37,278 bases of DNA from a virus. The notes beneath the pieces were generated by a model, which had not been told where the DNA came from, did not search any database, and was given only the letters and a program-made list of their open reading frames with translations. The translations under genes were made by a program, and so were the position numbers. This document shows positions 5,023-27,250 of this stretch, in pieces (the stretch's first letter is position 1; the number at the start of each line of letters is the position of its first letter). The stretch spans positions 1 through 37,278 of IMG/VR virus record IMGVR_UViG_3300013094_000133, one strand, 5' to 3'.

Positions 5023-7647
5023 ATGTCCATACAATTCCCCGCAAATCCAGTAAACGGTCAACTGTTCGAAATCGGATCCAGTGTCTATGCTTATAACTCT
5101 ACAAGACAGCGTTGGATAGCCACAGGATCTAGCCCTACGATCAATACTGGTACTAGCCTGGTCATTGGTGCACTAGCTAATCAACCCACAGTTTCAACAG
5201 GATTCCTACAGTTGCCTGTAGGTACCACGGCTCAGAGACCAGCAATCACTGCGGCTGTGAGTACAGGTACAGGAGGCACATTCTATACAACCGCGACTGG
5301 CCTATTTGCAGGACTATCAGCGGTACACATATTTACAGCCACAGGTACTAGCTATTTCACAGCCAGTTCTGCTGTTACTGTGGCCTATCTAGCTGTAGGC
5401 GGTGGTGGTGGTGGAGGTTGTGGCAACGGTGGTGGTGGTGGCGGAGCTGGTGGTATGACAACTGGAACATTTACAGCCTCTGCCAATACGACATACACTA
5501 TCACTGTAGGAGCAGGTGGGGCCAAAAGCACAGATGGAACCAGTTCAACTATCGTAGGTGGCAGCTTAAACCTAACAGCACTCAAGGGAGGCGCAGGTGG
5601 TAATGATGGTTATCCGGGCGGTTCTTGGACCGCCGCTGGTGGAGGTGCTGGTATATATGGATCAGGAGGTGGAGCTGGTAGAGACGCCACCCTATCTGGT
5701 AACGTTCCTCTATACGGAACAGGTGGAGCAGGCACTACAGGACAAGGGAATCCGGGCGGATCAGATCCAGGATACTGCGCAGGAGGTGGCGGTGGAGCCG
5801 GATCGGTAGGTGGCGCAGGTGGTGGGCTTGGTGGAGTCGGCGGAGCTGGTACTAGTTCAATAATAACTGGAGTATTGACCTACTATGCCGGCGGTGGTGG
5901 TGGAGTTACATCCTCTGTATCTCAGGCTGGCGGGGTTGGTGGTGGTGGGAGATCGTCACAGTTACCCGGAGGAGTTGCCGCACAGTCTGGCACTCCTGGT
6001 ACAGGAGGTGGCGGTGGCGGTGGCGGTAATCCAGGTTGGGTCAGCAATGGTCAGCCAGGTGGTCCTGGGATAGTAGTGATTTCTTACTCTTTATCAGCAA
6101 CTATTCCCACAGGATCAACACGTTTTAACACCACACTGAATCAGATAGAAGTCTATACGGGTTCTGCCTGGACCAAGATCGCCGGACCTGGATACTCGGC
6201 CAGCTTATTACTAGTAGGTGGAGGTGGAGGTGGATCGCCCTCCAGCGGTGGTGGTAGTGGTGGACTAGTAATCACTCAGGCCAATCTAACCACAGGCACA
6301 CAATACACAATAACAGTAGGCACAGGTGGAGCGGCTAATACGCCGGGCACCACTACGACATTTGTAAATTCTACTACAGGAGTCGCGGCCTATTCTGCCG
6401 GGGGTGGACAGGCAGGTCAACCTGGTTCAGTGGGTGGATTGAGTGGTATCGCCTACTCTCCCACACAAACTCTAGGCTACGGGTATCCAGGATCACCAAC
6501 AGGTGGCGGAGCAGGATCACGCGAACCAGGACATGGCGCCTGCGGTGGATCAGGTCGTGCTTTTGTCGATGGCCAGATATATGCCGCTGGTGCTCCCAGT
6601 ACCGGTGCTGTTGTTACTGCGGCCTCTGGGGGAACTCCTACCACTACAGGATCAGGACTATTTCCAGGAACCAGCTATGTGCATACCTATACCACTTCTG
6701 GATTTTTTACTACTACCAGCGCACTGTCGGTAGTGGCTTATATGCTGGTAGCTGGTGGTGGAGCAGGTGGAGTCAATTGGGGAGCTGGTGGTGGAGCAGG
6801 TGGATTCGTGACAGGTACATTTGCGGCTCTGGCAGGCACTACCTATACCATAACCGTAGGTGCTGGAGGCACGCCTGGCAGCAGATTTGCCGCTAGTAAT
6901 CCAGGAGGAAATTCATCGATCAGTGGTGCGGGTATTGTAACTATCACAGCCTGTGGTGGTGGCGGTGGTGGTTCATATGGTGGCGGCTATACAGGAGGTT
7001 CAGGCAGCGGAGATCAATTGGCAGTAGGATCACCTGGTTTTGGTGTGGCTGGACCCCAAGGATATCCTGGAGGAACTGGAGGAGGCACACAGCCTGGCGT
7101 ATTTGCCGGCGGTGGTGGAGCTGGTGGTAGTGGATTCAACGGAACCGGTCCAGGATCTGTAGTAGGACCAGCTATAGGTGGTCCAGGAAGAGCCTACAGC
7201 ATTTCTGGTTCGTCGGTAACCTATGCCGGTGGTGGTGGTGGAGGTGGGGGTGGTCCAGGAGTATCTCCGAGAACCATACCTGGCGGAGCAGGCGGTGGGG
7301 GCTCAGGTAAGGTAACCATCTGTACTAATCCCTGCGGAAGTCCACTAGGAGCAGGCACTCCCGGTACTCCAAACACCGGTGGCGGTGGTGGAGGTGGCAG
7401 TACCAACTGCGGAAACGGTGGATCTGGTGGCCCTGGAATAGTCATCTTAAGTTATTCTTTATCAGGCACTGCCAATGCTTCAACCAGCACAGGTAACGGT
7501 GGTGGCGGTGGTGGTGGTGGTGGTGGATCGGGTATAGTAAAAATAGCCTATCCTGGCACTCAACAGATTGGATCTGGAGGTACAACATCTACTAGTGGTG
7601 GATATTTCTATCATAGTTTTACGAGCCCAGGTACTTATATTGGTTAA
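5023..7647 (+). CDS. F1: glycine-rich tail adhesin with two inserted Gly-rich cassettes
   Basis: 874 residues; ATG 5023 with GGAGG at 5008-5012. Starts MSIQFPANPVNGQ, then a YNSTRQRW motif and GTTAQRP at residues 67-73. The natural continuation of that module (STRFNTTLNQIEVYTGSAW) comes only at residue 365, because glycine-rich cassette 1 lies between. A second, outer glycine-rich domain begins near residue 390 (LLLVGGGGGG), is interrupted by cassette 2 (about 535-815) and resumes as a run of ten glycines and SGIVKIAYPGTQQ. It ends in YFYHSFTSPGTYIG. Each Gly-rich domain follows the plan HxFTATGTSYFTA, VAYLxVGGGGGG, TYTITVGAGG, GPGIVVxSY, which fits the Gly-rich domain family of phage tails; some phage adhesins (S16 gp38) use glycine-rich segments packed as polyglycine-II helices to bind receptors. 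No LamG module is present. Receptor binding is inferred. Confidence 0.75.
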   Translation: MSIQFPANPVNGQLFEIGSSVYAYNSTRQRWIATGSSPTINTGTSLVIGALANQPTVSTGFLQLPVGTTAQRPAITAAVSTGTGGTFYTTATGLFAGLSAVHIFTATGTSYFTASSAVTVAYLAVGGGGGGGCGNGGGGGGAGGMTTGTFTASANTTYTITVGAGGAKSTDGTSSTIVGGSLNLTALKGGAGGNDGYPGGSWTAAGGGAGIYGSGGGAGRDATLSGNVPLYGTGGAGTTGQGNPGGSDPGYCAGGGGGAGSVGGAGGGLGGVGGAGTSSIITGVLTYYAGGGGGVTSSVSQAGGVGGGGRSSQLPGGVAAQSGTPGTGGGGGGGGNPGWVSNGQPGGPGIVVISYSLSATIPTGSTRFNTTLNQIEVYTGSAWTKIAGPGYSASLLLVGGGGGGSPSSGGGSGGLVITQANLTTGTQYTITVGTGGAANTPGTTTTFVNSTTGVAAYSAGGGQAGQPGSVGGLSGIAYSPTQTLGYGYPGSPTGGGAGSREPGHGACGGSGRAFVDGQIYAAGAPSTGAVVTAASGGTPTTTGSGLFPGTSYVHTYTTSGFFTTTSALSVVAYMLVAGGGAGGVNWGAGGGAGGFVTGTFAALAGTTYTITVGAGGTPGSRFAASNPGGNSSISGAGIVTITACGGGGGGSYGGGYTGGSGSGDQLAVGSPGFGVAGPQGYPGGTGGGTQPGVFAGGGGAGGSGFNGTGPGSVVGPAIGGPGRAYSISGSSVTYAGGGGGGGGGPGVSPRTIPGGAGGGGSGKVTICTNPCGSPLGAGTPGTPNTGGGGGGGSTNCGNGGSGGPGIVILSYSLSGTANASTSTGNGGGGGGGGGGSGIVKIAYPGTQQIGSGGTTSTSGGYFYHSFTSPGTYIG
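5257..6105 (+). repeat. Gly-rich cassette 1 (in F1, between GTTAQRP and the RFNT module)
   Basis: Head near 5264 encodes TGGTFYTTATGLF and AVHIFTATGTSYFTA. Tail near 6061-6090 encodes GPGIVVISYSL. The flanking GTTAQRP and STRFNTT pieces join without a gap in F3 and F6. Edges are judged by eye, within about 10 bases. Confidence 0.65.
6625..7470 (+). repeat. Gly-rich cassette 2 (in F1, inside the outer Gly-rich domain)
   Basis: Head encodes SGGTPTTTGSGLFPGTSYVHTYT, a divergent head. Tail at about 7429-7467 encodes GPGIVILSYSLSG. The outer domain resumes at once with ten glycines and SGIVKIAYPG. Edges approximate. Confidence 0.6.
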
Positions 7648-7650
7648 ATA
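7643..7650 (+). promoter_or_regulatory. Possible late promoter octamer GTTAAATA
   Basis: The octamer overlaps the F1 stop codon. With T4 late geometry (octamer -13 to -6) the start would be 7656, giving a 31-base leader that contains AAAGGAG. It shares only the TAAATA core with the T4 consensus TATAAATA. Confidence 0.35.
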
Positions 7651-7686: not shown

Positions 7687-8070
7687 ATGAGTCATTACGC
7701 AAGAGTAGAAAACGGAACTGTAACACAGGTCATAGTAGCAGAACAAGATTTTATCAACACTGGTGCTGTTGGAGATCCCGCTTCATGGATCCAGACCAGC
7801 TATAACACACGTGGCGGAGTACACTATGGTGCCGATGGACAACCAGACGGCGGTCTAGCACTGCGTGGTAACTATGCAGGTATTGGCTATACATATGATA
7901 GTGTTAATGATGTGTTTTATCCACCTAGCCCGTTCCCAAGCTGGACTATATCAGCTGAGTCAAACTGGTCCTGGACCGCACCTGTGGCACAACCAGCACC
8001 TATAGAAGGAAGCTATTGGTCATGGGACGAGCCTACAACTTCATGGGTAAGTAAACCAAATCCACAATAA
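7687..8070 (+). CDS. Small conserved phage protein between tail adhesin genes
   Basis: 127 residues; ATG 7687 with the strongest Shine-Dalgarno of the region (AAAGGAG, 7671-7677, 9-base spacing). The N-terminal half (MSHYARVENGTVTQVIVAEQDF, then NTRGGVHYG, LRGNYAGIGYTYD) matches a small protein widespread in cyanophage-type genomes and of no defined function, usually near structural genes. The C-terminal half is rich in Trp (SWTI, NWSWTAP, GSYWSWDE, SWVSK), reminiscent of short W-rich modules in fibre and fibre-assembly proteins. It is unrelated to the Gly-rich genes around it. Two options are a minor virion component or a chaperone for the adhesins; the sequence does not decide. The following gene starts 6 bases after its stop without a clear Shine-Dalgarno, suggesting translational coupling. 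Confidence 0.7.
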   Translation: MSHYARVENGTVTQVIVAEQDFINTGAVGDPASWIQTSYNTRGGVHYGADGQPDGGLALRGNYAGIGYTYDSVNDVFYPPSPFPSWTISAESNWSWTAPVAQPAPIEGSYWSWDEPTTSWVSKPNPQ

Positions 8071-8076
8071 CAGTCG

Positions 8077-11000
8077 ATGAGCATACAGTTTCCCTCATAC
8101 ATAACAACTTCTACACTGGTGGCGGACAGCACCATCACCAGTGTGGTTCTACAGTTACACGGTGACGGGATAGCCGCCTCGACTAACAGTAACTTCGTTG
8201 ATTCGAGTACTAATAATTTCGCTATCACTCCTACAGGCACACCTACACAGGGCGCAGTAAATCCATTTGGAAGTTATTGGAGCAATTATTTCAATGGTAC
8301 GACAGATTTTGCTGTATCCATATCATCTAGTTCTTATGTAATAGGACTCAATGACTACTGTTTAGAAGGGTGGAGCAATTTCACTGGTTCGACCGGAACA
8401 CTGGCTATTTTTCTAGCTGATTTTTTTCAAAATCTCCCGGGAGATTATGGCACCTACATAGGAATTAATGCCTCAGGTAAACCATATGGATTTATACAAA
8501 ACGGCAATGGGGCAGGACAGACAGTAGCATTAGTTGGCACCGCTACTATCTCTACCAATAGTTGGAATCATTACGCACTGGTACGCAACGGAGCCAATGC
8601 CAGTTTGTTTTTTAATGGAACACAGGTAGCATCTACCTCAACAGCTAGTATAACGCTAAATCACAATATAGTAACCCTGGGTAGATACTCTAGTAATAAT
8701 GCACTATATTGGTGGACCGGCTACGTTGCTAATGCTCGACTGTCTATAGGATCTGTTCCTGGATATAGCGCGACTGCATCTACTATTCCTGTTCCAACAG
8801 GAAACTTTACAACATCAACAGGAACTGTATATCTAGCATCACAGACCAATAGGTTTTTCGACAGCGTAACGTCGGGGCCACTAACAATTACTGGTACGCC
8901 ATCAGTCCAGCGTTTCTCACCATTTTCAACCTCTACCGTCTACGCTACATCAACAGCTACCTTCTTGGGATCAACATATTTCGATGGATCGACTGGGTAT
9001 CTCAGCATTCCTTCAAATCCTAATTTATATTTTGGTACGAAAGACTATACAGTTGAAGCTTGGGTATACATAACAGCATCAGGCACCAACTTGACATATT
9101 TTGGCGCAACCGCAACCGGAGGTCCAGTATTTAATATAGGGTCTCTTACAACAATATCTGTCAATCCCTACGGCACCAGCCCAGTCAACGGCTCTCAGGG
9201 CTGTATACAGAATTTCACGTTTTCTCTGAATACCTGGTATTATATAGCATTCACTAGAGCCAGTAATACAACAAGAATATTTGTCAATGGAATTCAAATA
9301 GGATCGAATGTAACAGATTCAACCAACTATACTCAAACTGCCATGGCCGTAGGCGGATTTACCGGTCAATTTTTTCCAGGCTATGTTTCTAATCTACGCA
9401 CGACTATTAGTACGGCACTCTACACTGCTAATTTCACTCCCAGTACTGTACCATTAACTACTGTTACCAATACAGTCTTACTAACTAGTCAATATTCTAA
9501 TTCAGTTGCAGATGCGTCTACTGCATCGAATACTATCTCAGTTGTTGGTACGGCGGTTCCAAATCTCCGCACACCATTCACCCGCAACGATCAATCAACC
9601 GCGGCCACAGTCTACGGTGGTAGTATGTATTTCAATGGTAGCACAGACTATCTAACTATACCTCAGAATTCCGCCTTCAATTTTCCTGGTGATTTTACTA
9701 TAGAATTCTGGGCCATCACCCAAACCTTTGCTGTGACGGGAGGTGCCAGTGCCACTTGGATAAGTGGATCTAATCAGATCTCCAACAGCTGGCTATTTAC
9801 ATTCAACGCCACCGTAGCTTCTTTTTATTTTAATCAGTCAGCTATCCTAAACGCCACAGTGGCCAGTAACGTTGCTGAAGGTTGGGCACATTGGGCGGTG
9901 AGTCGTAGATCAGGCAATCTTGTCATATTCAAGAATGGCGTACCTTATGGATCGGTGTCCAACTCGGCTAATATAACTATAGGCGGTCCTTTATACATTG
10001 GAGCGCAGAGCCCCAGTAAGGGATATTCTCTCGGTTATTTAGGTAATGTGAGAATTGTCAACGGTCAGGCTCTTTATACAGGTACTTTTACAGTGTCTAC
10101 AGTAGCACTGACTACATCAAGCCAGGGTGCTACTGGTACAGTCCTGTTGCTACAGGGAACCAATGCGGGCATCATAGACACCACCATGCAGAATAATCTG
10201 ACCACTATCCCCGGTGTGCAGATCAACACCACCGCTACCACGGTGAAATATGGCTCTGGTAGTATGTCGTTTAATGGAGCTGGTGGATATTTAAGCATAC
10301 CTAATAATCCTAATTTGAATTTAAGTTCCGGTAGCTGGACTATTGAGTGTTGGATATACCCAATTAATTTTACTAATTATAATGTAATTGTTGCAAAAAG
10401 AATAAGTTCAGGGGCTAGTACCAGTTACGAATTTTATCTTTTACAAACTTCAGGATACTTATCATTTTTTAACGGCACAACCACGTATAGTTCAACAACC
10501 GCTCCATCGTTAAATGTTTGGAGCCATGTAGCCTGTGTTTATAATGGAACAAATGTAACAATTTACCTAAACGGAAGTAGTGTTTATACAAGTGCTACTA
10601 CTATAACAGAACAAAATAGTACATTACTTATTGGATATGACGGCTCAACAACGGATTATTTTACTGGTTACATCGACGACCTACGCATAACCAAAGGTGT
10701 AGCACGCTATACGGCCACGTTCACTCCACCTACCCAGGCCAACTACGATTCGGCTACAATAAGCACTACCACCTTTACTACCAGTTTCACTACAGCCAAC
10801 AATGTCTATAGTGTTACTTCTGCTACTACACTATCAAGAGGTGGCAATCTAATCTATACTACGGCCACTGGAGTCTTTGGATCCAGCGCAGTACATGTAT
10901 TCACAGCCACAGGCACTAGCTACTTTACAGCATCAAACACCATCACTGTGGCCTTTCTAGTTGTAGGTGGTGGTGGTGGAGGTGGCAGTGGTACGGGTGG

Positions 11001-13449
11001 TATAGGTACTGTGGTCAGTGGGGGAGGTGCAGGAGGTGTGGTTACAGGAACCACTTTGATGTCTGCTGGTACGACTTATACCATCACTGTAGGTAGCGGC
11101 GGAGGTGTATCTCCAGCTACACTAGGTACTCCTGGAACCACCAGCAGTATAGTAGCACCGGATGGTACTAATATCAAAGGACTAGGAGGTGGTGGCGGCG
11201 CTGGCCCTACAGGTAACGGACTTCCCGGAGGATCTGGCGGTGCAGGAGCTGGCGGTACAGGAACACCAACAGCAGTCGGAGGAACTGCTCTTCAGACTAC
11301 AACTAATCAAACTGTAATTTCTGGAACCTATAATAATTACGGGTTTCCGGGAGGTGCTTCAGTTCCTAGTAACTGCGGTACAGGTGGATCGGGTGGGGGT
11401 GGGGCAGGAGCCAAAGGTACTAACGGAGCCAATAATTTCGTCGGTGTTGGAGGAGTTGGCATACAGTACAATATCGTTGGCACATCGACTTATTATGCAG
11501 GAGGAGGAGGAGGTGCAGGTAATAATACCACAGGAGCCGCAGGAGGACTAGGTGGTGGGGGTGCAGGTAGTATAGCTCCGGGAGTACCTACCAGTCTCGG
11601 TATTCCCGGAACAGCAGGAACTGGCGGTGGCGGTGGAGGTGGAAATACACAGGTCACTCCGGGGCTAGGCGGTACAGGTGGGCCTGGTATAGTCATTATC
11701 AGTTATGCCTACACGGGCACCGTGACTACAATAATCTCGACAGGAACTAGCCAGACCTACAACTATGTCAACGGACGTTGGACTCTGCGACCATTCAATA
11801 CCGGCACATTAGACATATCATATGGGGCATTTGCCAATCAGGCCAATACCGCCACCACGGCTCTGGCTGTGAGTGCAGGCTGTACCGGCCAGCGCGGTCT
11901 GCCCACACAGACGGGTGCGGTGCGTTTCAATTCGGCACTGAACGTGGTAGAAACTTATAATACTACCTATAATACCTGGACCAGTATTACCGCGGGCATA
12001 CCCTATACTATAGAATATTTGGCAGTGGCAGCTGGTGGTGCCGCTTCAGCTACAGCAGGTGGTGGAGCTGGTGGAGTCCTGGCTGGATTCGCTTCCGTGA
12101 CCACAGGTAACGTATACACTGTGGCGGTAGGACAAGGTGGTTCTGGAGCTGGTGGGGTTAGTTATATAATCAACAATGCCAATTCCACAGCACAGGTAAC
12201 AGGTCAACAGGCTCAGGGCGGAGACAGTATATACTCTACATCAACTGGCATATTCTCTGGTACCAGCTATGTACACATATTCACCAGCACAGGAACAAGT
12301 TATTTTACAGCATCAAATGCCATCACCGTGGCCTATTTGGTAGTAGCAGGTGGTGGCGGTGGGGGTCGATATGGAGGTGGAGGGGGAGCCGGCGGATTAG
12401 TCACTGGAACATTTACGGCTACTGTCGGTACCGTATATACTGTACAAGTAGGATCGGGCGGAGCAGGATGGCCTGGATGTAGCCAATCTGGTGGGAATGC
12501 TGGTTCGGGAAGATTTTCCAGTATTTCTTCAGGAACCACAGTCATCTCTACAGCTACAGGTGGAGGCGGTGCTGGAACATATGGAAATCCTTCAGGTAGT
12601 CCTGGATTACCTGGTGGATCTGGGGGCGGTGGTGGAGCTAGTAATACTGGGGGACCAACCACTGGAGGCAATGGTGTTCCAGGGCAGGGAAATCCAGGAA
12701 GCGGATCTGTGGCTCCTGTTAATACCAATCCAGCCGGTGGTGGAGGCGGTGCTGGAGGGGCTGGGGGACCGGGAGGCCAAGGAGGATCAGGATCCACTAG
12801 CACCATTTCGGGATTGGCGACAATATACGCCGGTGGTGGTAGCGGTTATCAGGTAAGCGCACCACTTGCAGGTGGATCTGGAGGAGGCGGAACTGGAATT
12901 GGCGTAGCAGGAGGTGCGACACCAACTGCTATCGACGGAGTACGAAATACCGGTGGCGGTGGCGGTGGTGGAAAAGATAATACAGTATGCGGAGTTCTTC
13001 GAGCTGGAAATGGTGGTCCTGGCATCGTAATCCTTAGCTATGCTTATACCAGCACGTTCTATACCGTAAATTCAGGTTCAGCCATAGCCTTCGCCTTTGG
13101 TGGATTTGCTGGTACAGCAACAGGTGGTGCCAGCGGTGGTGGTGTAGTGGGACAGGGTTTCGCGGCTAGTTCTACTCTAGGTGCTGGTGCTTATTCAGCC
13201 GCCGGTACAGGTATCTACTCACAGGTCACTGGTGCACAGATAACCTATGGTGCTGGTGGTGCTGCCACAGGTTCTTCCCCAGGTGGAACCAATACAGGCA
13301 ACGGTGGATCTGCTCCAGGTGGTACAGGTGCCCCGGGTGTGGTCTACATACGCTACACCGGCGGTCAACGTGGCACAGGTGGAACTGTATCTACAGTTGG
13401 TACCTATACTCTGCACACATTTATTTCAACAGGAACCTATACAGCATGA
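8077..13449 (+). CDS. F2: giant adhesin with four LamG modules and two Gly-rich cassettes
   Basis: 1790 residues; ATG 8077 lies 6 bases after the previous stop, with no evident Shine-Dalgarno. Starts MSIQFPSYITT. Four LamG / concanavalin-A-like lectin modules follow at about residues 65-228, 295-448, 511-668 and 723-880. Each opens with a (S/Y)xxFxG strand, has a WxH(Y/V)A or WYYIA strand and an xxxNG(T/I)xV hairpin, and closes with GYxxNxR or GYIDDLR. Then come cassette 3, a YNYVNGRW module, an intact GQRGLPTQTGAVRFN module, an outer Gly-rich domain interrupted by cassette 4, and the tail TLHTFISTGTYTA. LamG folds usually bind glycans or proteins, so a receptor-binding role on the host surface is likely but inferred. 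The stop overlaps the start of F3 (ATGA). Confidence 0.75.
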   Translation: MSIQFPSYITTSTLVADSTITSVVLQLHGDGIAASTNSNFVDSSTNNFAITPTGTPTQGAVNPFGSYWSNYFNGTTDFAVSISSSSYVIGLNDYCLEGWSNFTGSTGTLAIFLADFFQNLPGDYGTYIGINASGKPYGFIQNGNGAGQTVALVGTATISTNSWNHYALVRNGANASLFFNGTQVASTSTASITLNHNIVTLGRYSSNNALYWWTGYVANARLSIGSVPGYSATASTIPVPTGNFTTSTGTVYLASQTNRFFDSVTSGPLTITGTPSVQRFSPFSTSTVYATSTATFLGSTYFDGSTGYLSIPSNPNLYFGTKDYTVEAWVYITASGTNLTYFGATATGGPVFNIGSLTTISVNPYGTSPVNGSQGCIQNFTFSLNTWYYIAFTRASNTTRIFVNGIQIGSNVTDSTNYTQTAMAVGGFTGQFFPGYVSNLRTTISTALYTANFTPSTVPLTTVTNTVLLTSQYSNSVADASTASNTISVVGTAVPNLRTPFTRNDQSTAATVYGGSMYFNGSTDYLTIPQNSAFNFPGDFTIEFWAITQTFAVTGGASATWISGSNQISNSWLFTFNATVASFYFNQSAILNATVASNVAEGWAHWAVSRRSGNLVIFKNGVPYGSVSNSANITIGGPLYIGAQSPSKGYSLGYLGNVRIVNGQALYTGTFTVSTVALTTSSQGATGTVLLLQGTNAGIIDTTMQNNLTTIPGVQINTTATTVKYGSGSMSFNGAGGYLSIPNNPNLNLSSGSWTIECWIYPINFTNYNVIVAKRISSGASTSYEFYLLQTSGYLSFFNGTTTYSSTTAPSLNVWSHVACVYNGTNVTIYLNGSSVYTSATTITEQNSTLLIGYDGSTTDYFTGYIDDLRITKGVARYTATFTPPTQANYDSATISTTTFTTSFTTANNVYSVTSATTLSRGGNLIYTTATGVFGSSAVHVFTATGTSYFTASNTITVAFLVVGGGGGGGSGTGGIGTVVSGGGAGGVVTGTTLMSAGTTYTITVGSGGGVSPATLGTPGTTSSIVAPDGTNIKGLGGGGGAGPTGNGLPGGSGGAGAGGTGTPTAVGGTALQTTTNQTVISGTYNNYGFPGGASVPSNCGTGGSGGGGAGAKGTNGANNFVGVGGVGIQYNIVGTSTYYAGGGGGAGNNTTGAAGGLGGGGAGSIAPGVPTSLGIPGTAGTGGGGGGGNTQVTPGLGGTGGPGIVIISYAYTGTVTTIISTGTSQTYNYVNGRWTLRPFNTGTLDISYGAFANQANTATTALAVSAGCTGQRGLPTQTGAVRFNSALNVVETYNTTYNTWTSITAGIPYTIEYLAVAAGGAASATAGGGAGGVLAGFASVTTGNVYTVAVGQGGSGAGGVSYIINNANSTAQVTGQQAQGGDSIYSTSTGIFSGTSYVHIFTSTGTSYFTASNAITVAYLVVAGGGGGGRYGGGGGAGGLVTGTFTATVGTVYTVQVGSGGAGWPGCSQSGGNAGSGRFSSISSGTTVISTATGGGGAGTYGNPSGSPGLPGGSGGGGGASNTGGPTTGGNGVPGQGNPGSGSVAPVNTNPAGGGGGAGGAGGPGGQGGSGSTSTISGLATIYAGGGSGYQVSAPLAGGSGGGGTGIGVAGGATPTAIDGVRNTGGGGGGGKDNTVCGVLRAGNGGPGIVILSYAYTSTFYTVNSGSAIAFAFGGFAGTATGGASGGGVVGQGFAASSTLGAGAYSAAGTGIYSQVTGAQITYGAGGAATGSSPGGTNTGNGGSAPGGTGAPGVVYIRYTGGQRGTGGTVSTVGTYTLHTFISTGTYTA
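10066..10267 (+). repeat. Conserved linker before LamG module 4 (F2 copy)
   Basis: This stretch, encoding QALYTGTFT to GTVLLLQG, AGIIDTTMQNN, and INTTATTVKYGSGSM, is closely matched at DNA level at 19118-19320 (F5) and less closely at 26247-26460 (F6). The LamG cores downstream are not alike. A hand count gives 50% G+C for 10141-10200 but 33% for the core at 10381-10500. Confidence 0.75.
10838..11715 (+). repeat. Gly-rich cassette 3 (in F2, after LamG module 4)
   Basis: Head encodes RGGNLIYTTATGVF and AVHVFTATGTSYFTA. Tail at about 11680-11709 encodes GPGIVIISYAYTG. It sits between the post-LamG linker (TTFTTSFTTANN) and the YNYVNGRW module, a junction that is empty in F6. Edges approximate. 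Confidence 0.65.
12209..13050 (+). repeat. Gly-rich cassette 4 (in F2, inside the outer Gly-rich domain)
   Basis: Head encodes QAQGGDSIYSTSTGIF and YVHIFTSTGTSYFTA. Tail at about 13015-13050 encodes GPGIVILSYAYTS. The outer domain begins with YTIEYLAVAAGG upstream and resumes with AFAFGGFAGTATGG downstream. Edges approximate. Confidence 0.6.
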
Positions 13450-13450: not shown

Positions 13451-14582
13451 CATCGTTTTTCCAACAACAATAGCTTCTACCTATATAGGACAACAAGCTC
13501 AAGGCGGAAATAGTGTCTACACTACTTCTACAGGCCTATTCACTGGAACTTCGGTAGTACACGTGTTCACATCCACAGGAACTAATACATTTACTGCTAA
13601 CAATTTTCTATCAATAGCGTATCTCATAGTGGCAGGTGGTGGCAGCGGCGCCAGCGTTGGTGCTAGTGTAGGCGGCGGCGGTGGCGGAGCTGGCGGAATG
13701 TTGACAGGCACTGCGACCTTACTGGCCGGTTCTTATGCTGTGGTAGTAGGGGCAGGAGCTCCTCCTACAGCTAGTAATTCAGGTAATGGCACTCAAGGTC
13801 AACCATCTAGCATCGCTAGTATTTCCACCGCTACAGGAGGCGGAGCAGGTGGTGGTCCCGGAACTGGCGGTCCTGGTGGTTCGGGTGGGGGTCAATCCAA
13901 GCATCCAGGTTTTGGCACAGGTATACCTGGCCAAGGATATCCAGGAGGAACTGGTTCTGGAAATTATGGTGTTAATCCAGTAGGAGGTGGCGGTGGCGGT
14001 GGCGCTGGATCAGCAGGTGGATGTTCTCCATCAGCACCTACTGGCGGCACAGGCGGCAGTGGTCAAGCATGGTCTATTACCGGAGCATCAGTGACCTATG
14101 CTGTAGGAGGAGGTGGAGGTAATACTGTGACAACTCCGGGAACCACAGGCCCCGGATATGGAGGAGGTGGGGGAGGCGGAGCTGGCGGTCCAGGAGGTAC
14201 TCCGGGCGATCCAGGCGGAGCAGGTGGCCCTGGTATAGTCGTGATCAGTTATGCCTACACCGCCACAATTATTTCGAGTGTTCCGAACGGTTATAAACTA
14301 ACAACATCTACCTACCTAGGCACAGAAACATGGACTTACAACACAGCCACAAACCGTTGGTGGAGCACGCAGGAACCCAGTCAGCAGTATACTCTGACGC
14401 CCAGCCTGATAGAAGATCAAGCTACTACATCTACGGGCTACATAGATTTCCCCTATGGAACCACAGCGCAGAGACCACAGGGCCCGACACCCGGTTATAT
14501 GCGTTTCAACACTGACCTGGGCTTAATGGAATATTACAATACCTCCGGAACGTGGGTGCAGATACCCGCTCAAAACACCTAG
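13446..14582 (+). CDS. F3: short LamG-less adhesin with one Gly-rich cassette
   Basis: 378 residues; the ATG overlaps the F2 stop (ATGA). The start MSIVFPTTIASTYIGQQ leads almost directly into cassette 5. After the cassette comes the post-LamG chassis: TETWTYNTATNRWW, LTPSLIEDQATTSTGYIDFP, GTTAQRP and, eight residues on, RFNTDLGLMEYYNTSGTW. So the GTTAQRP/RFNT junction is intact here. The protein lacks LamG modules, the outer Gly-rich domain and the HTFTxxGTYTA tail. It can be read as an internal-deletion derivative of an F2/F5-like gene that kept the start peptide. A role as a minor adhesin, or as a partner of F2, is speculation. The stop is TAG, followed by a 40-base gap with a late-promoter-like element. 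Confidence 0.75.
   Translation: MSIVFPTTIASTYIGQQAQGGNSVYTTSTGLFTGTSVVHVFTSTGTNTFTANNFLSIAYLIVAGGGSGASVGASVGGGGGGAGGMLTGTATLLAGSYAVVVGAGAPPTASNSGNGTQGQPSSIASISTATGGGAGGGPGTGGPGGSGGGQSKHPGFGTGIPGQGYPGGTGSGNYGVNPVGGGGGGGAGSAGGCSPSAPTGGTGGSGQAWSITGASVTYAVGGGGGNTVTTPGTTGPGYGGGGGGGAGGPGGTPGDPGGAGGPGIVVISYAYTATIISSVPNGYKLTTSTYLGTETWTYNTATNRWWSTQEPSQQYTLTPSLIEDQATTSTGYIDFPYGTTAQRPQGPTPGYMRFNTDLGLMEYYNTSGTWVQIPAQNT
13493..14262 (+). repeat. Gly-rich cassette 5 (in F3, near the N-terminus)
   Basis: Head encodes QAQGGNSVYTTSTGLF and VVHVFTSTGTNTFTA. Tail at about 14227-14256 encodes GPGIVVISYAYTA. The head, including GQQAQGG, is close to that of cassette 4. Edges approximate. Confidence 0.65.
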
Positions 14583-17106: not shown

Positions 17107-17107
17107 G
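17088..17107 (+). promoter_or_regulatory. Coupled stop/start junction with embedded Shine-Dalgarno (F4/F5)
   Basis: Exactly the same 20 bases as at 13431-13450: they encode the GTYTA tail and stop of F4 and place AGGAA ahead of the F5 ATG at 17103. Confidence 0.7.
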
Positions 17108-20100: not shown

Positions 20101-23100
20101 TCTCTGCCACTGCTGGTGCTACATATACTATCACTGTAGGAGCAGGCGGAGCAGGAGTTGGGCCCACCGGCAATGCCGCGGTACAAGGTAAGACTGGAAC
20201 TAATTCAAGCATTACAGGAACAGGAATTTCATTGATAGCCTGTGGTGGTGGTGCTGGTGGCGGTAATCCTGTATCTGGGGGTGCAGGTGGTTCTGGGGGC
20301 GGCGGCGGAGTTGGTGGAACAGTAGGCGGCTCAGGCGTTTTCGGACAGGGAAATTCAGGTGGCGGTAGCCCTGTTCCAGGTGGATGTACTACTGGTGGAG
20401 GTGGCGGCGGAGGCGCAGGGGCGGCAGGGGCGTCGGGAACTCCAGGAAGAGTAGGAGGAGCCGGTGGAAATGGACTACAGAGTGCTATCACTGGAAATTT
20501 ACAATACTATGCTGGTGGTGGTGGTGGAGCTACTAGATGTACACCAGGATCAGCGATCGGTGGACTAGGTGGCGGAGGGCCAGGAGCTGGGCCAAGTGGT
20601 GCAACTGGTGTTCCTGGTACTCCAGGAACAGGAGGCGGTGGTGGTGGAACTTGGAATCAAACTCCATTAACTGGGGCTGGTGGTCCTGGTATTGTGGTCC
20701 TATCCTATGCTGCCAGCACTGTGACCACAGTAGTCTACACAGCCACCTCAGTGACCTATACCTACAACACTGTGAGCTCACGCTGGGTGGTACACACTCC
20801 GCCCGCCAGCACAGCTACCAATATCATAACACCCCTCATAGCCAGCTGTCAGGCCAATGCTGCCACGGGATTCTTCGCAGTCAGCTCAGGCACCACAGCC
20901 CAGAGACCTACTACGAATTCCACTTACTATCTAGCAGGATCCGGGGGTAATTTAGTATACTCTACAGTGTTGGGAGCGTTTCCGGGATCTACAGCCGTAG
21001 TACACATATTCACCGCCACAGGTACTAGTTATTTCACAGCCACCGCCAATGTCGCGGCCGCATATCTAGCAGTAGGTGGTGGAGGAGCTGGATGTTCTGG
21101 CGCTACTAACTGTTCTACATACGGAGGTGGTGGTGCTGGAGGAGTCGTCATATCAGGTAGCTTTACCATAACATCTGGTACGACCTATTCTATTACAGTA
21201 GGTGGTGGTGGTATATCTGCGGCCAGGGGATCGACAGGTACTTCAGGAGGTTACAGTTCAATAACTGCAGGATCTACGGTTATCACTACCGCATCGGGAG
21301 GCTCAGTAGCCAGTACTCCTGCGGGTTCAGGTGGTAGCAACAGTTCTTATTCTGGAGGTGCCGCAGGGCCTGGAGCAAGTGCTGGTGGTGGTGCTGGTGC
21401 AGGTGGAGCAGGTGGTCCTGGAGCTACTGGACTGGGAGGTACAGGGGCATTCAATATAATATCAGGATCTCCTACATATTATGGCGGTGGAGGAGCAGGA
21501 GCTCTCACAGGCCTAGGAGGCCTTGGTGGCGGAGGTAACATTGCTACTCCCGGAACTGCTGGTCTAGGTGGCGGTGGTGGCAGTGGCGGTACCGCAGGAG
21601 GTAGCCTATTGTTCACAGGAACCAGTGCTGCCTATGTTGGATTCAGCTATGGTCTCACTGGTCCGCTCTACTGGGGCAATAACCAAAACTTTACCATGGA
21701 GTTCTGGACCTATCCATTTAGCCTTGGAGCCAACAGTGTTTTCGTGAATGTAGGGACTTACAAAGAAGCCTACGGTAGTGAAACTGTTATGTATATCACA
21801 TCATCTACTGGAGCAATCTATATCAGTGGAGGCAGTGGCACCTGTGCCGCAGGATATACATCTACTTTTCCAGCGCCTATACAGGTCAACACCTGGACAC
21901 ACGTGGCTATCGTGCGCAACAACAACAACCTAACCAGCTATGTCAACGGTGTGGCTGGTTCCACAGTCAGTGCTCCCGGAGCCGCACAGCCCAACAGCAA
22001 CAGATACTGCCTCGCTGGTCCTAACGGTTTTTGGTTCGGTATCAACAGTACCAACTGGACTGCCTTTAGTCCTACCACGCTCAACGGTAGGATGACCAAC
22101 ATCAGATACGTAGTGGGCAGTGCGGTCTATACAGGGCCATTTACGCCACCAACTACTCCATTGACTCCTATAGTCAACACGGCTCTGCTGATGAAAGTAG
22201 CCAGTTCGTCTACCTACGTGACCGATTCTAGCACACTGTCTAATGCTATGACCTATATTGGTGTCACCTACACAGCCACGACCACATTGGTTCCTCCTAG
22301 TGCCGGCGGTGGTGGTTCTGGTATAGTGGCCATATCTTACCTCAGCAGTCCTAGTTTTTCTTCTAGTGTGACTACATTTGTCACAGCAGGTACAGTTACC
22401 GCTCTGGTTTCTACAGGAACAGGTGGTAGATTCTATACCACATCAACCGGCCTGTTTGCTGGCACTTCGGTAGTACACGTGTTCACAGCTACGGGTACCA
22501 GTTACTTTACAGCTAGTTCTGCTATATCCTCAGTGGCCTATCTGGTAGTAGCAGGTGGTGGTGGCGGTGGTGGATCTGTAGGTCTAGGAGCAGGAGGCGG
22601 AGGTGCTGGAGGATTCGTAACAGGAACATTTACTGCTACAGCAGGTGCTACTTATACTATCTCAGTAGGATCAGGTGGTGGTGGTGGAGTAGGTACTGCT
22701 TTTAGCACAGGTACTAACGGTAGCTTTAGTTCAATAACATCAGGAACACAGATTATCTCAACAGCCACAGGAGGTGGTGGTGGAGGTGGTGGTATTGGTA
22801 CTGCAGGAGGCGGATCAGGCCTTCCTGGAGGATCTGGAGGTGGTTCTGGTACAGGAGGACCTGCTGGTCAACCAGGTGCGACTGGCATACCAAGACAGGG
22901 TAATGCTGGTGGTGGTGGTTCTGGAAGTGCTCCACCCGGATTTGGTGGTGGCGGTGGTGGAGGTGCTGGATCTACAGGTACTACTGGTACTTCTTCAGCA
23001 GGACCGGGAGGTGCTGGATCTACTAGTACTATTACCGGATCGGCTGTGATCTATGCTGGTGGTGGTGGCGGAAGTACCACTAATGGTAATCCGGCTGCGG

Positions 23101-24221
23101 GAACAGGAGGTCCTGGTGGTGGTGGAAGCGGCACCGGTAATACCACAACAGGCGGTAATGGTACTACGAATACCGGTGGTGGTGGTGGAGCTGGAGGAGC
23201 AGGAAGTAGTACCTGTCGTTCATCTGGTGGTGCGGGTGGTCCCGGCATCGTGGTGTTGAGCTATGCCTATCCTACCGTGACCAGCCTATTGCCTGGTGGT
23301 GCTCTACGCTATAACAACGATACTAACATTATGGAAATCACCAACAGTTCAGGAACTTCATGGGTCGGCGTCACGGGTAGTTCTACCTATCCTGTGGAAT
23401 ATTTGGTAGTAGCAGGCGGTGGCGGCGGTGGCCAGACTATAGCTGGTGGTGGTGGTGCCGGTGGGGTATTGTCGGGCGGAACCTTTGTTTCTCCCGGAGC
23501 GTCATATACCATTACCGTAGGATCTGGTGGAGCAGGTGCTACAGGAAATCCTGCTTATTCTACAGGTGGCGGATCTACCGGTTCAAATTCATCTATAGTA
23601 GGAACCGGAGTTAGTATCGTAGCTACAGGCGGAGGTGCAGGTGGCAATAACGACGGCTCTAGTAATGGAGCTACTCCAGGAGGTTCGGGTGGCGGGCTAG
23701 GAACAAGTTGGCCTGGCACCACAGCCTGCGTAAGCGGTGTTTTAGGTCAAGGCTATCCCGGAGGAACCACAGCAGCCAATGGTAATAATGGCGCTGGAGG
23801 TGGCGGAGCCGGAGGTGCTGGATCTCCAGCGGTCAGTGGTACACCTGCTTCAGGTGGATCAGGAATTGTCAACACTATCAATGGCACCACTACTTATTAT
23901 GCCGGTGGTGGCGGAGGTGGAGCAAGATATCCAGGATATGGCAACGGCGGGGTCGGTGGTGCTGGTGGCGGTGGTGCTGGTGGAGCTAGTGGTCCTGGAA
24001 CCAATGGTACTGCCTACACCGGAGGGGGTGGTGGAGGGGGTGGTTTTAACAACGGACCGGGCACTTCCTATGGTGGTGGTACAGGTGGTTCGGGCATCGT
24101 TATACTACGCTATCCAGGCAGTCAGCGTGCTTCTGGCGGAAATGCGATAAGTACTATCACAGTGTCAGGAAGTAATTTCACAGTACACACATTCACTGCC
24201 ACAGGAGCCTTCATAGCATGA
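17103..24221 (+). CDS. F5: giant adhesin, five LamG modules and three Gly-rich cassettes, one carrying a LamG
   Basis: 2372 residues, the largest gene here; the ATG overlaps the F4 stop (ATGA). Starts MSIQFPLYISTG. Four LamG modules lie at about residues 69-232, 292-452, 517-679 and 732-895, in the same order and with the same linkers as F2 and F6. Cassette 8 follows, then the YNTVSSRW module and GTTAQRP at 1263-1269. The matching RYNN piece is only at 2069: 800 residues of insertion lie between, made of cassette 9 with a fifth LamG (about 1499-1732) nested in its glycine-rich part, and cassette 10. The outer Gly-rich C-terminal domain (about 2098-2345, YPVEYLVVAGGGGGG to GSGIVILRYPGSQ) is uninterrupted, unlike F1, F2 and F4. 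The tail is TVHTFTATGAFIA. Host-surface binding is inferred from the LamG folds. Confidence 0.75.
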   Translation: MSIQFPLYISTGTTSTVADPTITSVVLQLHGDGIAASTNSNFVDASTNTFVITRVGTPTQGSVNPFGSYWSYYFGGNGNYLYTTSNSTFNPGATGAWTIELWVLPVNTTVGNILCFGNGSAYGNAIDFYWTGSSFTFSQSNGGSAPVNLTTSTTYSVGAWYHLAVSKNASNLINFYINGQSVATQTYSSSLAASTVAVLNGAYDNNGLGNNGGTFYISNVRWTPGVAVYTANFTPSTTPLYTLTNTTFLTAATNRFQDISTNTFALTAAGSPSVQRFSPFTTSTVYATSTATFLGSSYFPATYTYLSAPSASWPINSTTWTAEGWFYTNSSSGNVGLFVYGDLLVNWYDGTNLNFQYRTSTAGGTWISLLAPYTFRAGVWYHIAMVMNVTTLSAYVNGSITTSSSVASALGLWGGTGVQAVWIGVTDVYPYGSPDYSLNGYVSNFKISNTALYTGTSFTVPSNPLSATSSTLLLTCQYSNSVADASTNTYAVTTVGSTATVSLRTPFARNDTSTAATLYGGSIYLNGTTDYLTVTSSTNLALGSGDFTIETWVYTTIANQTYGSGIVGTYDGGSNGGWSLTINRSSGGPYGIAFIHNNTIQQSYGTYLTANTWYHIAVTRASGTLRTFVNGIQVATGTYATNDTVLSKCYIGAQGAGQYHSGYISNLRMVNGQALYTGTFTVTTVALTTSSQGATGTVLLIPGVNAGIIDTTMQNNLVTVGAAQINTTATTVKYGSGSMGFNGSSGYLLSPATPQLTLGTGNFTLEYWLYLNSTSSQGIFGTRPQSTNGIYPVMYFLSGTLRYNVNSTDVISASISSSTWYHIAVSRSGSSTKMFINGTQAGSTYTDNNNYLCSRLVIGADDYVLGNNPLNGYIDDLRITNGVARYTATFTPPTAAFPDVAVITGTTTTYTTSFTTSGQVVQTLQIGYPQQQGGNSVYTTSTGLFSGTSYVHIFTATGTSYFTATSAIASVAYLIVAGGGSGGNFAGGGGGAGGMITGTFSATAGATYTITVGAGGAGVGPTGNAAVQGKTGTNSSITGTGISLIACGGGAGGGNPVSGGAGGSGGGGGVGGTVGGSGVFGQGNSGGGSPVPGGCTTGGGGGGGAGAAGASGTPGRVGGAGGNGLQSAITGNLQYYAGGGGGATRCTPGSAIGGLGGGGPGAGPSGATGVPGTPGTGGGGGGTWNQTPLTGAGGPGIVVLSYAASTVTTVVYTATSVTYTYNTVSSRWVVHTPPASTATNIITPLIASCQANAATGFFAVSSGTTAQRPTTNSTYYLAGSGGNLVYSTVLGAFPGSTAVVHIFTATGTSYFTATANVAAAYLAVGGGGAGCSGATNCSTYGGGGAGGVVISGSFTITSGTTYSITVGGGGISAARGSTGTSGGYSSITAGSTVITTASGGSVASTPAGSGGSNSSYSGGAAGPGASAGGGAGAGGAGGPGATGLGGTGAFNIISGSPTYYGGGGAGALTGLGGLGGGGNIATPGTAGLGGGGGSGGTAGGSLLFTGTSAAYVGFSYGLTGPLYWGNNQNFTMEFWTYPFSLGANSVFVNVGTYKEAYGSETVMYITSSTGAIYISGGSGTCAAGYTSTFPAPIQVNTWTHVAIVRNNNNLTSYVNGVAGSTVSAPGAAQPNSNRYCLAGPNGFWFGINSTNWTAFSPTTLNGRMTNIRYVVGSAVYTGPFTPPTTPLTPIVNTALLMKVASSSTYVTDSSTLSNAMTYIGVTYTATTTLVPPSAGGGGSGIVAISYLSSPSFSSSVTTFVTAGTVTALVSTGTGGRFYTTSTGLFAGTSVVHVFTATGTSYFTASSAISSVAYLVVAGGGGGGGSVGLGAGGGGAGGFVTGTFTATAGATYTISVGSGGGGGVGTAFSTGTNGSFSSITSGTQIISTATGGGGGGGGIGTAGGGSGLPGGSGGGSGTGGPAGQPGATGIPRQGNAGGGGSGSAPPGFGGGGGGGAGSTGTTGTSSAGPGGAGSTSTITGSAVIYAGGGGGSTTNGNPAAGTGGPGGGGSGTGNTTTGGNGTTNTGGGGGAGGAGSSTCRSSGGAGGPGIVVLSYAYPTVTSLLPGGALRYNNDTNIMEITNSSGTSWVGVTGSSTYPVEYLVVAGGGGGGQTIAGGGGAGGVLSGGTFVSPGASYTITVGSGGAGATGNPAYSTGGGSTGSNSSIVGTGVSIVATGGGAGGNNDGSSNGATPGGSGGGLGTSWPGTTACVSGVLGQGYPGGTTAANGNNGAGGGGAGGAGSPAVSGTPASGGSGIVNTINGTTTYYAGGGGGGARYPGYGNGGVGGAGGGGAGGASGPGTNGTAYTGGGGGGGGFNNGPGTSYGGGTGGSGIVILRYPGSQRASGGNAISTITVSGSNFTVHTFTATGAFIA
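19118..19320 (+). repeat. Conserved linker before LamG module 4 (F5 copy)
   Basis: Encodes QALYTGTFT, GTVLLIPGVNAG, IIDTTMQNN and TTVKYGSGSM. It shares long near-identical runs with 10066-10267; for example the bases coding GATGTVLL and AGIIDTTMQNN are almost unchanged. The downstream LamG core is different. Confidence 0.75.
19890..20710 (+). repeat. Gly-rich cassette 8 (in F5, after LamG module 4)
   Basis: Head encodes QQQGGNSVYTTSTGLF and YVHIFTATGTSYFTA. Tail at about 20683-20712 encodes GPGIVVLSYAAS. Same insertion point as cassette 3. Edges approximate. Confidence 0.65.
20935..22340 (+). repeat. Gly-rich cassette 9 with a nested LamG module (in F5)
   Basis: Head encodes GSGGNLVYSTVLGAF and VVHIFTATGTSYFTA. 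The glycine-rich body breaks off at GGGGGSGGTAGG (about 21600), a LamG module of about 700 bases follows, and the body resumes at about 22305 with SAGGGGSGIVAISY, the normal cassette ending. At about 1.4 kb it is longer than the others by roughly the LamG length. Confidence 0.6.
22415..23275 (+). repeat. Gly-rich cassette 10 (in F5, tandem to cassette 9)
   Basis: Head encodes GTGGRFYTTSTGLF and VVHVFTATGTSYFTA. Tail at about 23239-23270 encodes GPGIVVLSYAYP. It is followed by the GALRYNN half of the split module, so cassettes 9 and 10 share one insertion point. Edges approximate. Confidence 0.65.
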
Positions 24222-27200
24222 GTATTCAATTTCCTCTATACATCGGTACTACCATTAACAGTGGTGATGTCTACTACAACGAAGACGCTCTGTTATTACA
24301 TGCTGACGGTGTCACGGGCAGTAACAACACTGGTACTTTTGTAGATGCATCAACTAATACCTTTGTCATAACTCGAGTAGGAACTCCCGCACAGGGAAGT
24401 GTAAATCCATTTGGCACCAACTGGTCAGCCTACTTCAACGGAGCTACAACTGCCACGGTCTATGCCAGCACGGTGACAACCAGTTCATTCGCATTTGGTA
24501 CCAACAACTGGACCATAGAAACCTGGATCAATGCTGCCAACACTGTGAGTAACTATCCTCTGATAGTAGGCAACTATGTGACAACTTTCACCACCAATAG
24601 CTGGGGACTCTATTACAATCGCATAGACACAGGCAATTTCTATTTTTCCGCCAGCAACGGTGGTATGACTCTGGCATCAGGTAGTGCCTATATAGTTCCA
24701 GGATGGAATCATGTGGCCGTGGTCCGCAATGGTGCCACAGTCAGTTTATTTGTCAACGGTACTCAGACCGGCAGTTTCAACTATGGAGCCACTAGCCTAG
24801 ACGGTGGGGTGGCTGCTAATCTCTATATAGGTGATGCTGGCGGAAATGACGCCACTACTCGTTTCAATGGCTATATCTCAAATCTACGTGTGGAAAATGG
24901 ATCTGCAGTATATACTGGAACATTTACTCCCAGTGTGGTACCACTCTCTACTGTTACTAACACTGTTTTACTGACTTTGGCCAGTAACTACGTGAGAGAT
25001 TTATCAACACTGAATTTTGCTACTACAGCAAGTTCTGGAGTCAGCATACAGAGATTCAATCCTTTTGGTAATACTCAGACCTACAGTATCAGTAGTGCCA
25101 CGATACAGGGAAGCACATATTTTGGAGGTAGTGGCAATTATATGACCACAAATTCAACTCCTATCTCTACCACACAGAGTACATTCACTATCGAAGCATG
25201 GATCTACATGACTGCAACTCCAGTAGGATCAGACAGAGGAGCTGTCGTGGGAGATATGCAGGCTAATGCAGGTTCTAACATTTGGAGTTTTGGTCCAAAC
25301 GCTTCAGGACAGTTGACATTCTATTGGTATACCGGATCGTTAAACACCGCTTACGGCAATACAATATTAAATCTCAACACATGGTACCATATTGCAGTTT
25401 CAATAAATGCCGCCGCCATCTCTATGTATGTAAATGGAGTCCAGCAGACACTCACTGGCACCACTACTCTGACGAATAGATTGGGCAGTAACAACAGCCT
25501 AGCTATAGGACAATATAGTAATACCCCCGCCGCTCTATTCACCGGGTATATCAGCAATTTGCGCATAGTAAACAGCACAGCAGTCTACTCCGCCACGTTC
25601 ACTCCTAGCCCAGTTCCACTCGCTCCGGTTACTAATACCGTATTACTGACCAGCCAATATTCAAACAGCCTAGCCGATTTGTCCACAGCATCAAACGTCA
25701 TCTCCGCTGTTGGCACAGTAGCCCCAAGTCTCCGCTCACCATTCGCCAGGGTGGATACATCAACCGCAGCCACAGTCTATGGTGGAAGCATCTATCTCAA
25801 TGGTAGCAGTTATCTAACAGTGCCTTATTCATCAGATATAAATTTATCTACAGGAGCACCAAATTGGACAGTTGAATTGTGGATATATCCTACGAGTGTA
25901 GCGGCAGGTGGGTCTCTTTTATTGAAAGATTATGTATTTGGAAGCACTTTTCCCATATATGGCGGTTTTTTGAATACCAACGGTACGATAACATGGTATG
26001 CCAGCAACGGTGTTGCTAATCAATACGTTACAACATCCATAGCGGTATCAGTAAACACATGGAATCATTTGGCTTTTGTGAGAAATGGAACTACAGCAAC
26101 TATCTATATCAACGGAGTTCCGAGCGGTTCATTTACGATTAGCACAGCGATGACCGACAATGGCGGTCCTTTGTACATAGGTGCTTACAGTACACCAGGT
26201 GGCTATTTTACTGGATATTTTAGTAATATTCGTATTGTAAAAGGTCAAGCTCTCTATACTGCTAACTTCACTCCTAGCGTAGTACCATTAACCACATCAA
26301 GCCAAAGTGCTACTGGCACAGTTTTGTTGATACCCGGCGTCAATGCTGGCATCTATGATTCCACTATGGAGAATAATCTAGTCACCGTGGGTTCGGCTCA
26401 GATCAACACCACCGCCACCACGGTGAAGTTTGGTTCTGGTTCAATGTATTTCAATGGTAGCGGATATCTTTCATCCCCATACTCCTATGCTTGGATACTG
26501 TCAGGTAACTTTACTGTAGAGTGTTGGTTATATTGGTCAGCACACGGTTCGTACGGTGGTATAGTTGGATCAGCTAATAACAACACAGGAGCCGCTATTA
26601 CATCTGGTTGGTTTCTAGATTTCAACAGTACCAGCAATAATCTGCAGTTCGAAGGGCAGGGCAGTGTTTCTGTTGTCACAACGAATCCAATACCACAGAA
26701 TACCTGGACGCACATAGCTGTGGTTCGTTCTGGGTCGACTATAACTCACTACTTAAACGGTGTTGCCAACGGATCTGGAACCAGTTCGCAAGTATTCAAT
26801 TCGACCAGCTATCCTCTCTATGTAGGTGTAGATCGAGGTTCCACTTCATATCTCACAGGCTATGTCGACGACCTTAGGATAACCAACGGAGTGGCACGCT
26901 ACACAGCCACATTCACTCCGCCCACAGCTAGCTTTGCTGACATACAACCGTCCACATCTACCATAATCACCACGACATTTACCACAGCCACCAATATTGG
27001 TACTGTGACCTGGGCCTACAACACAGCTACCACACGCTGGGGTGGCCTACAGGAACCCACCGCCTCAACCAATCTAACACCCATGAGCATAGAAGATCAG
27101 GCCAATACAGCCACAGGCTATTTCAGCTTGCCGCAGGGCACCACTGGTCAGCGACCCCCCAATCCACAGGCTGGCTACATGCGCTACAATACCACACTAG

Positions 27201-27250
27201 ATTCAGTGGAATATTACAATTTCGTAACAGGTTGGACCACTATCCCCTAA
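24218..27250 (+). CDS. F6: LamG adhesin without Gly-rich domains (cassette-free chassis)
   Basis: 1010 residues; the ATG overlaps the F5 stop (ATGA), with AGGAG at 24203-24207. Starts MSIQFPLYIGTT, then four LamG modules at about residues 67-237, 297-460, 520-684 and 742-904. The post-LamG linker (TTTFTTATN) runs straight into VTWAYNTATTRW, then LTPMSIEDQANTATGYFSLP, GTTGQRP and, eight residues on, RYNTTLDSVEYYN, ending GWTTIP. Both the post-LamG and GTTAQRP insertion points are therefore empty. It has no glycine-rich domain and no HTFTxxGTYTA tail, so it serves as the reference for reading the insertions in F1-F5. LamG modules suggest glycan or protein binding; the target is unknown. A 51-base gap with a consensus late promoter follows. 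Confidence 0.75.
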   Translation: MSIQFPLYIGTTINSGDVYYNEDALLLHADGVTGSNNTGTFVDASTNTFVITRVGTPAQGSVNPFGTNWSAYFNGATTATVYASTVTTSSFAFGTNNWTIETWINAANTVSNYPLIVGNYVTTFTTNSWGLYYNRIDTGNFYFSASNGGMTLASGSAYIVPGWNHVAVVRNGATVSLFVNGTQTGSFNYGATSLDGGVAANLYIGDAGGNDATTRFNGYISNLRVENGSAVYTGTFTPSVVPLSTVTNTVLLTLASNYVRDLSTLNFATTASSGVSIQRFNPFGNTQTYSISSATIQGSTYFGGSGNYMTTNSTPISTTQSTFTIEAWIYMTATPVGSDRGAVVGDMQANAGSNIWSFGPNASGQLTFYWYTGSLNTAYGNTILNLNTWYHIAVSINAAAISMYVNGVQQTLTGTTTLTNRLGSNNSLAIGQYSNTPAALFTGYISNLRIVNSTAVYSATFTPSPVPLAPVTNTVLLTSQYSNSLADLSTASNVISAVGTVAPSLRSPFARVDTSTAATVYGGSIYLNGSSYLTVPYSSDINLSTGAPNWTVELWIYPTSVAAGGSLLLKDYVFGSTFPIYGGFLNTNGTITWYASNGVANQYVTTSIAVSVNTWNHLAFVRNGTTATIYINGVPSGSFTISTAMTDNGGPLYIGAYSTPGGYFTGYFSNIRIVKGQALYTANFTPSVVPLTTSSQSATGTVLLIPGVNAGIYDSTMENNLVTVGSAQINTTATTVKFGSGSMYFNGSGYLSSPYSYAWILSGNFTVECWLYWSAHGSYGGIVGSANNNTGAAITSGWFLDFNSTSNNLQFEGQGSVSVVTTNPIPQNTWTHIAVVRSGSTITHYLNGVANGSGTSSQVFNSTSYPLYVGVDRGSTSYLTGYVDDLRITNGVARYTATFTPPTASFADIQPSTSTIITTTFTTATNIGTVTWAYNTATTRWGGLQEPTASTNLTPMSIEDQANTATGYFSLPQGTTGQRPPNPQAGYMRYNTTLDSVEYYNFVTGWTTIP
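26247..26460 (+). repeat. Conserved linker before LamG module 4 (F6 copy)
   Basis: Third copy of the linker: encodes QALYTANFT, ATGTVLLIPGVNAGI, MENNLVTVG and TTVKFGSGSM. It is more diverged than the F2 and F5 copies but still shows long matching runs, such as the bases coding IPGVNAG and INTTATTVK. Confidence 0.7.

Follow-up and report, generated by a model that had tools for sequence, protein, structure and literature searches.

How ten glycine-rich cassettes came to be distributed over five of six paralogous adhesin-like genes, and whether they are inserted domains or ordinary tandem repeats, is the question raised by the virus record IMGVR_UViG_3300013094_000133. The window analysed is this linear record at its full length of 37,278 bases, and the six genes (F1–F6) occupy positions 5023–27250, with all parts mapped within them on the plus strand. 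One window gene matches the Pfam family of the T4-type tail sheath stabiliser (PF16724), and the gene at 1754–5002 is 48% identical to a structural protein of Synechococcus phage S-CAM1, so that the virus looks like a T4-like myovirus. Pfam scans of F1–F6 returned only Gly_rich_2 (PF21722, in F1–F5), LamG-type domains (PF13385, in F2, F5 and F6) and one hydrolase-like family. No match was obtained with the F4 protein as query against isolated phages (low-complexity filter on) or by megablast with the whole adhesin array, and the C-terminal part of F2 had no relative among bacterial and archaeal genomes.

The cassettes are Gly_rich_2 domains

The original prediction described ten segments sharing a head and a tail. 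All ten were located, and Pfam assigns them to PF21722, a family of phage 'glycine-rich domain-containing proteins', which has 12 matches in the window, every one above the curated cut-off, with the cassettes and outer domains well above it. Each cassette is a Gly_rich_2 domain with a conserved head in front (VHxFTATGTSYFTA...AYLVVAGGG) and a conserved tail (GGPGIVVLSY), and the bodies are hypervariable. The proposed tail consensus GPGIVVxSY held in general but not in the first F5 site-2 cassette, where the tail reads GGSGIVAISY. The Gly_rich_2 match is continuous at full length in most cassettes and in the F5 outer domain, and interrupted in the outer domains of F1, F2 and F4 and in the first F5 site-2 cassette. 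The outer Gly-rich domain and the cassette belong to the same family, and at site 3, within the outer domain, one Gly_rich_2 domain thus interrupts another.

For a view of the fold, the intact F5 outer Gly domain (23382–24125) was aligned with 41 relatives and given to AlphaFold2, which returned a confident model (pLDDT 92, pTM 0.90). Only two PDB entries matched this model in Foldseek with E below 0.001, the Bxb1 tail tip (E 9.8e-5) and the fibre of cyanophage Pam3 (7ypx, E 1.6e-4, probability 1.00), the latter at a modest TM of about 0.44, while 177 BFVD matches at E<=0.001 show that viral relatives are abundant. A sequence search of the PDB with the cassette profile gave no match. According to the accessible part of the Pam3 report (PMC9608196), the fibre protein gp24 (7YPX, 7YFW) resembles the cassette domain in combining a TNF-like and glycine-rich fold, and its glycine-rich domain has a conserved stem and, distally, a hypervariable tip responsible for receptor recognition. 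That part describes one such domain per gp24 chain and no insertion. By model and analogy, the cassette is a putative receptor-binding type domain with a TNF-like base and glycine-rich loops.

Site 2 is a short fixed junction, filled or empty

Site 2 separates the two halves of the chassis. It holds one cassette in F1 and F4 and two in F5, and it is empty in F2, F3 and F6, as had been claimed; the eight or so residues proposed for the empty junction proved to be exactly 8, between GTTAQRP or a variant and RYNT. In F1, chassis alignment places the N-half (YNxxxxRW ... GTTAQRP) at 5023–5241 and the C-half (RFNTTLNQIEVY..W) at 6112–6189, with the PF21722 cassette at 5272–6087. F4 has the same arrangement, with halves at 14623–14832 and 15661–15747 around a PF21722 cassette at 14851–15636. 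In F5, halves at 20718–20909 and 23292–23384 enclose a first cassette at 20943–22340, which is split by a LamG domain (about 21681–22148), and a second at 22422–23264, supported by Pfam and by orthologue comparison. The chassis with site 2 empty spans 11713–12012 in F2 (8 residues after GCTGQRG, about 11899–11922), 14292–14579 in F3 and 26963–27247 in F6.

Filled and empty paralogues can be aligned over both chassis halves, as the prediction required. All 42 empty relatives (42/42) aligned, unguided, to the chassis left and right of the F4 cassette, with invariant columns at G64, T65, R69 and P70 before the insert and G346, R349, N351, E358 and W367 after it. Profile matches to two solved phage proteins, 9d83 (2.2e-5) and 6nw9 (weak), covered both halves as one stretch. 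An AlphaFold2 model of F4 residues 1–376 was confident in the first 33 residues and in the right half; the QRP side had low confidence, and the halves were not seen folding as one unit. Among 114 distinct modules outside the lineage, the site-2 gap was 8 residues in 109, 7 in four and 6 in one, and none (0/114) had a gap above 200 residues or a filled site. The survey started from the left half and its matches were checked against an empty query, a design that favours modules without an interruption, and the 114/114 result is therefore strong but not unbiased. With the junction empty at 6–8 residues throughout this set, the filled state looks derived.

Site 1 and the nested outer domains

Site 1 holds a cassette in F2, F3 and F5 and none in F6, as claimed. 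The PF21722 cassettes lie at 10840–11706 in F2, 13503–14252 in F3 and 19899–20708 in F5. The position of this site after a LamG block was borne out for F2 (block and linker at 8077–10839) and F5 (17103–19898), but F3 has no such block, which puts its site 1 close to the N-terminus.

As had been proposed, F5 has an undivided outer Gly domain and F1, F2 and F4 a divided one, but site 3 is not one shared point: the domain is broken at different loops in the three genes. In F1, the first part (6193–6627) is followed late in the domain by a cassette (6628–7455) and then by the last part (GGSGIVKIAYPG) with the C-terminus (7456–7644). The F2 cassette (12217–13041) sits in an early loop, between parts at 11986–12216 and 13042–13446, and that of F4 (16048–16761) in a middle loop, between parts at 15748–16047, mapped on the domain model, and 16762–17103. 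On that model the breaks fall at about residue 57 (F2), 107 (F4) and 177–208 (F1), relatives add breaks at about 78–82 (a gene of L179) and 130–150 (F2 of L093), and the LamG domain within the first F5 site-2 cassette enters it at about 224–228, these positions being approximate where half-domain alignments, and with them some placements, are weak. No insertion point in the host domain is common to all cassettes. The order of starts and tails gives nested brackets such as '(())' in this lineage only and plain '()' in 102 ORFs elsewhere, a count in which several loci overlap one contig; the F1 and F2 cassettes at site 3 are identified by PF21722 and by this order. When aligned to a nested outer domain, intact outer domains land on the cassette instead.

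Occupancy and content differ among relatives

The nearest relative of the window, REL, consists of loci L009 and L089 joined on contig 3300025389_000014. It is syntenic with the window at about 95% DNA identity and has the same ten sites filled; the F2 LamG block and linker are mostly unalignable between the two. Six of the ten cassettes are 92.6–100% identical between window and REL, whereas the bodies at F1 site 2, F3 site 1 and both F4 sites (2 and 3) share only 48–54%, counting gaps as differences. Around these four cassettes, identity is 65–87% in 40-residue flanks that include the linkers, except in F3 (42–60%), and climbs to 92–97% beyond. Judged by these identities, the four are strongly diverged and non-orthologous, the pattern of in-place replacement, and differences between cassettes include indels as well as replacement of whole bodies. 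Since the two share their occupancy, gain and loss are visible only at greater distance.

At that distance, the same genes with different occupied sites, which the original prediction had proposed seeking in related phages, were found in L094, L093, L178 and L179. At F1 site 3 the window and REL have a cassette and L094 has none; the L094 outer domain is uninterrupted and aligns on both flanks. F2 of L093 has one cassette more, in a stretch that is continuous in the window (within the last part of the outer domain), REL and L094. At F5 site 2 the window and REL have a pair of cassettes and L178 a single one, lacking the copy that bears the LamG domain. In one gene of L179, a further cassette splits the Gly domain at site 1. 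F2 site 3 is apparently empty in L179, a less certain case because the sequence is more divergent and Gly-rich repeats can mislead alignment.

Cassettes also appear to be shared between genes. In the near-star tree of cassettes, clustering by position is mostly limited to near-identical copies. The REL cassette at F4 site 2, however, pairs with the L093 cassette at F2 site 3 (SH-aLRT 98), with 74% DNA identity over 563 nt (350 bits) versus 107 bits with its positional counterpart in the window. One cassette type is thus present, on sequence comparison, at two genes and sites in different phages; this is the only clear cross-gene pair. Assigning a donor to every cassette failed with the near-star tree, since the majority have diverged too far for this. 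At F3 site 1, a 140-nt head is 96% identical between window and L094 and is followed by divergence, as expected for exchange at the conserved head. A stretch of the F5 LamG block (17922–18659) is 98.5% identical to REL F2 and not to REL F5, indicating that modules also move between paralogues. Of the proposal that the cassette behaves as a mobile module, nesting, orthologous gain and loss, and replacement are directly supported and movement between genes has one strong case, but no dedicated mobility machinery was found in the sequences scanned.

Competing explanations

We consider the best reading to be that a receptor-binding type domain has been recursively inserted in frame and replaced in place, by recombination, within one T4-like myovirus lineage (probability about 0.8). 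Whole cassettes would have been inserted into the short, fixed-length chassis junction at site 2 and also into other Gly_rich_2 domains, at their loops, so that the proteins carry one domain within another. Resident cassettes would then have been exchanged for others, most probably through homologous recombination at the conserved heads and tails, a route that would fit the breakpoints. Nesting may be tolerated since the two ends of the domain, its first and last strands, may adjoin at the base of the fold. For site 2 and the outer domains, insertion is favoured over loss, since forms without an interruption are the norm elsewhere; individual losses, for example at F5 site 2, are possible. The benefit would be diversification of the adhesins. 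Given the fold and the role ascribed to domains of this type, it is plausible that cassettes retarget adhesins, and the varying slots and contents among relatives suggest a modular way to change phage attachment. More tentatively, at somewhat under even odds, the system may be a recursive, self-nesting one, in which the glycine-rich loops of the receptor-binding domain take up further complete copies of that domain as well as LamG lectin domains; in-frame recombination would let the resulting branched adhesins gain and lose branches and exchange them among genes and among phages.

A first alternative is that the Gly-rich domains simply stand in tandem, joined by linkers, and that repetitive sequence gives a false impression of split modules. 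It would agree with the membership of cassettes and outer domains in one family and with the F4 model, in which two small confident modules flank the cassette with an uncertain linker. This is unlikely, given the uninterrupted, fully flanked F1 outer domain of L094, the extra F2 cassette of L093 within an otherwise continuous stretch, the nested rather than serial bracket order and the fixed site-2 junction elsewhere; the L094 and L093 orthologues rule out serial repeats as the only arrangement. The filled state could instead have come first, through ancient whole-gene duplication, with the empty sites arising by deletion. The chassis shared by the paralogues and the occupancy shared with the nearest relative would suit such a history, which is nevertheless quite improbable: outside the lineage, junctions and Gly domains are as a rule uninterrupted, insertion points vary among paralogues, and beyond near-copies the cassettes group by neither gene nor site.

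The involvement of a dedicated element (a diversity-generating retroelement, transposon or homing endonuclease) in moving or mutating the cassettes is highly improbable, even though hypervariable bodies between conserved heads and tails are what such an element might produce. The sole hint of an enzyme is a weak homing-endonuclease-like match at 33066–33893 (phrog_3339, E 9.9e-5), an ORF to which Pfam assigns nothing, and the insertion points lack a common position in the host domain. No reverse transcriptase, transposase or recombinase was present among the window ORFs scanned, and the partial contigs of five relatives contained no reverse transcriptase (RVT_1) either, which makes diversification by a retroelement less likely. 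Repeats are hard to assemble and all sequences are metagenomic, yet a metagenome assembly artefact that joined repeats is barely credible when the same nested ORFs recur in an independent record at about 95% identity and in further contigs, all in frame and without stops.

Relation to known phage adhesins

The system falls among the modular phage adhesins; its unusual feature is that nesting is in frame and recursive and that orthologues show sites both filled and empty. In the other loci compared, Gly_rich_2 occurs as a plain single or serial unit, and self-nesting was seen only in this lineage. In the accessible description of T-even gp38 adhesins (S16, T2 type), a glycine-rich core lies between hypervariable host-specificity segments (Trojet et al. 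2011); compared by description, variation there lies in short hypervariable segments and here in whole-domain insertion. Pfam scans of F1–F6 did not return the gp38 family. Receptor-binding proteins are a focus of ongoing domain mosaicism, and the available text of Smug et al. (2023, PMC10684548) reports varied domain arrangements and does not contain the terms nested, inserted or domain insertion. No precedent for nested or inserted glycine-rich phage domains was found in the open-access literature, a body that leaves out most subscription papers. The shuffling of phage receptor-binding proteins already known is mostly domain exchange along the chain, whereas here whole domains lie inside loops of the same fold. 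With same-fold nesting and both filled and empty orthologues in hand, the effect of insertion on binding and the tolerance of the fold to being split by its own copy become testable. The F5 domain model also showed a weaker Foldseek match (E 0.15 to 2.4) to the TG (TNF-like and glycine-rich) domain of ALK and LTK, an animal receptor domain.

Exchange and insertion of LamG domains in the adhesin genes

Within F5, one of six paralogous adhesin-like genes (F1–F6), the LamG stretch at window positions 17922–18659 is 98.5% identical to F2 of a close relative (L009, 17151–17888) rather than to the F5 of that relative, which indicates that LamG modules were recently exchanged between paralogues. A LamG lectin domain (about 21681–22148) also lies inside the first site-2 cassette of F5, an in-frame Gly_rich_2 insertion at 20943–22340, immediately ahead of the cassette tail, and inserted domains are therefore not restricted to the Gly-rich kind. 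The close relative retains this internal LamG, and at L178, a locus of a further relative, it is missing together with the entire cassette. An HTFTxxGTYTA-like motif, similar to the cassette head VHxFTATGTSYFTA, forms the protein end in F1, F2, F4 and F5 and likewise in many other phage Gly proteins; judging from the motif, these proteins end as if in the head of a following Gly domain that is absent.

Gene junctions and neighboring ORFs

ATGA overlaps at F2/F3 (13446), F4/F5 (17103) and F5/F6 (24218), all embedded in the conserved junction sequence GCATGAGyAT, suggest that these gene pairs are translationally coupled. The adhesin gene array differs in length among relatives. At two related loci (L094 and L179), a gene beginning MNTYETVTPTIVGESIQTS comes directly after F3-type genes, and thus F4–F6 are not present at that place.

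Elsewhere in the window, an AT-rich ORF (33066–33893; about 33% GC versus 45–50% in its surroundings) gave weak PHROG matches, one of them annotated as a homing endonuclease, and no Pfam match. Between F1 and F2, a 127-aa phrog_7759 protein is encoded at 7687–8070, and the close relative keeps it at the same place.
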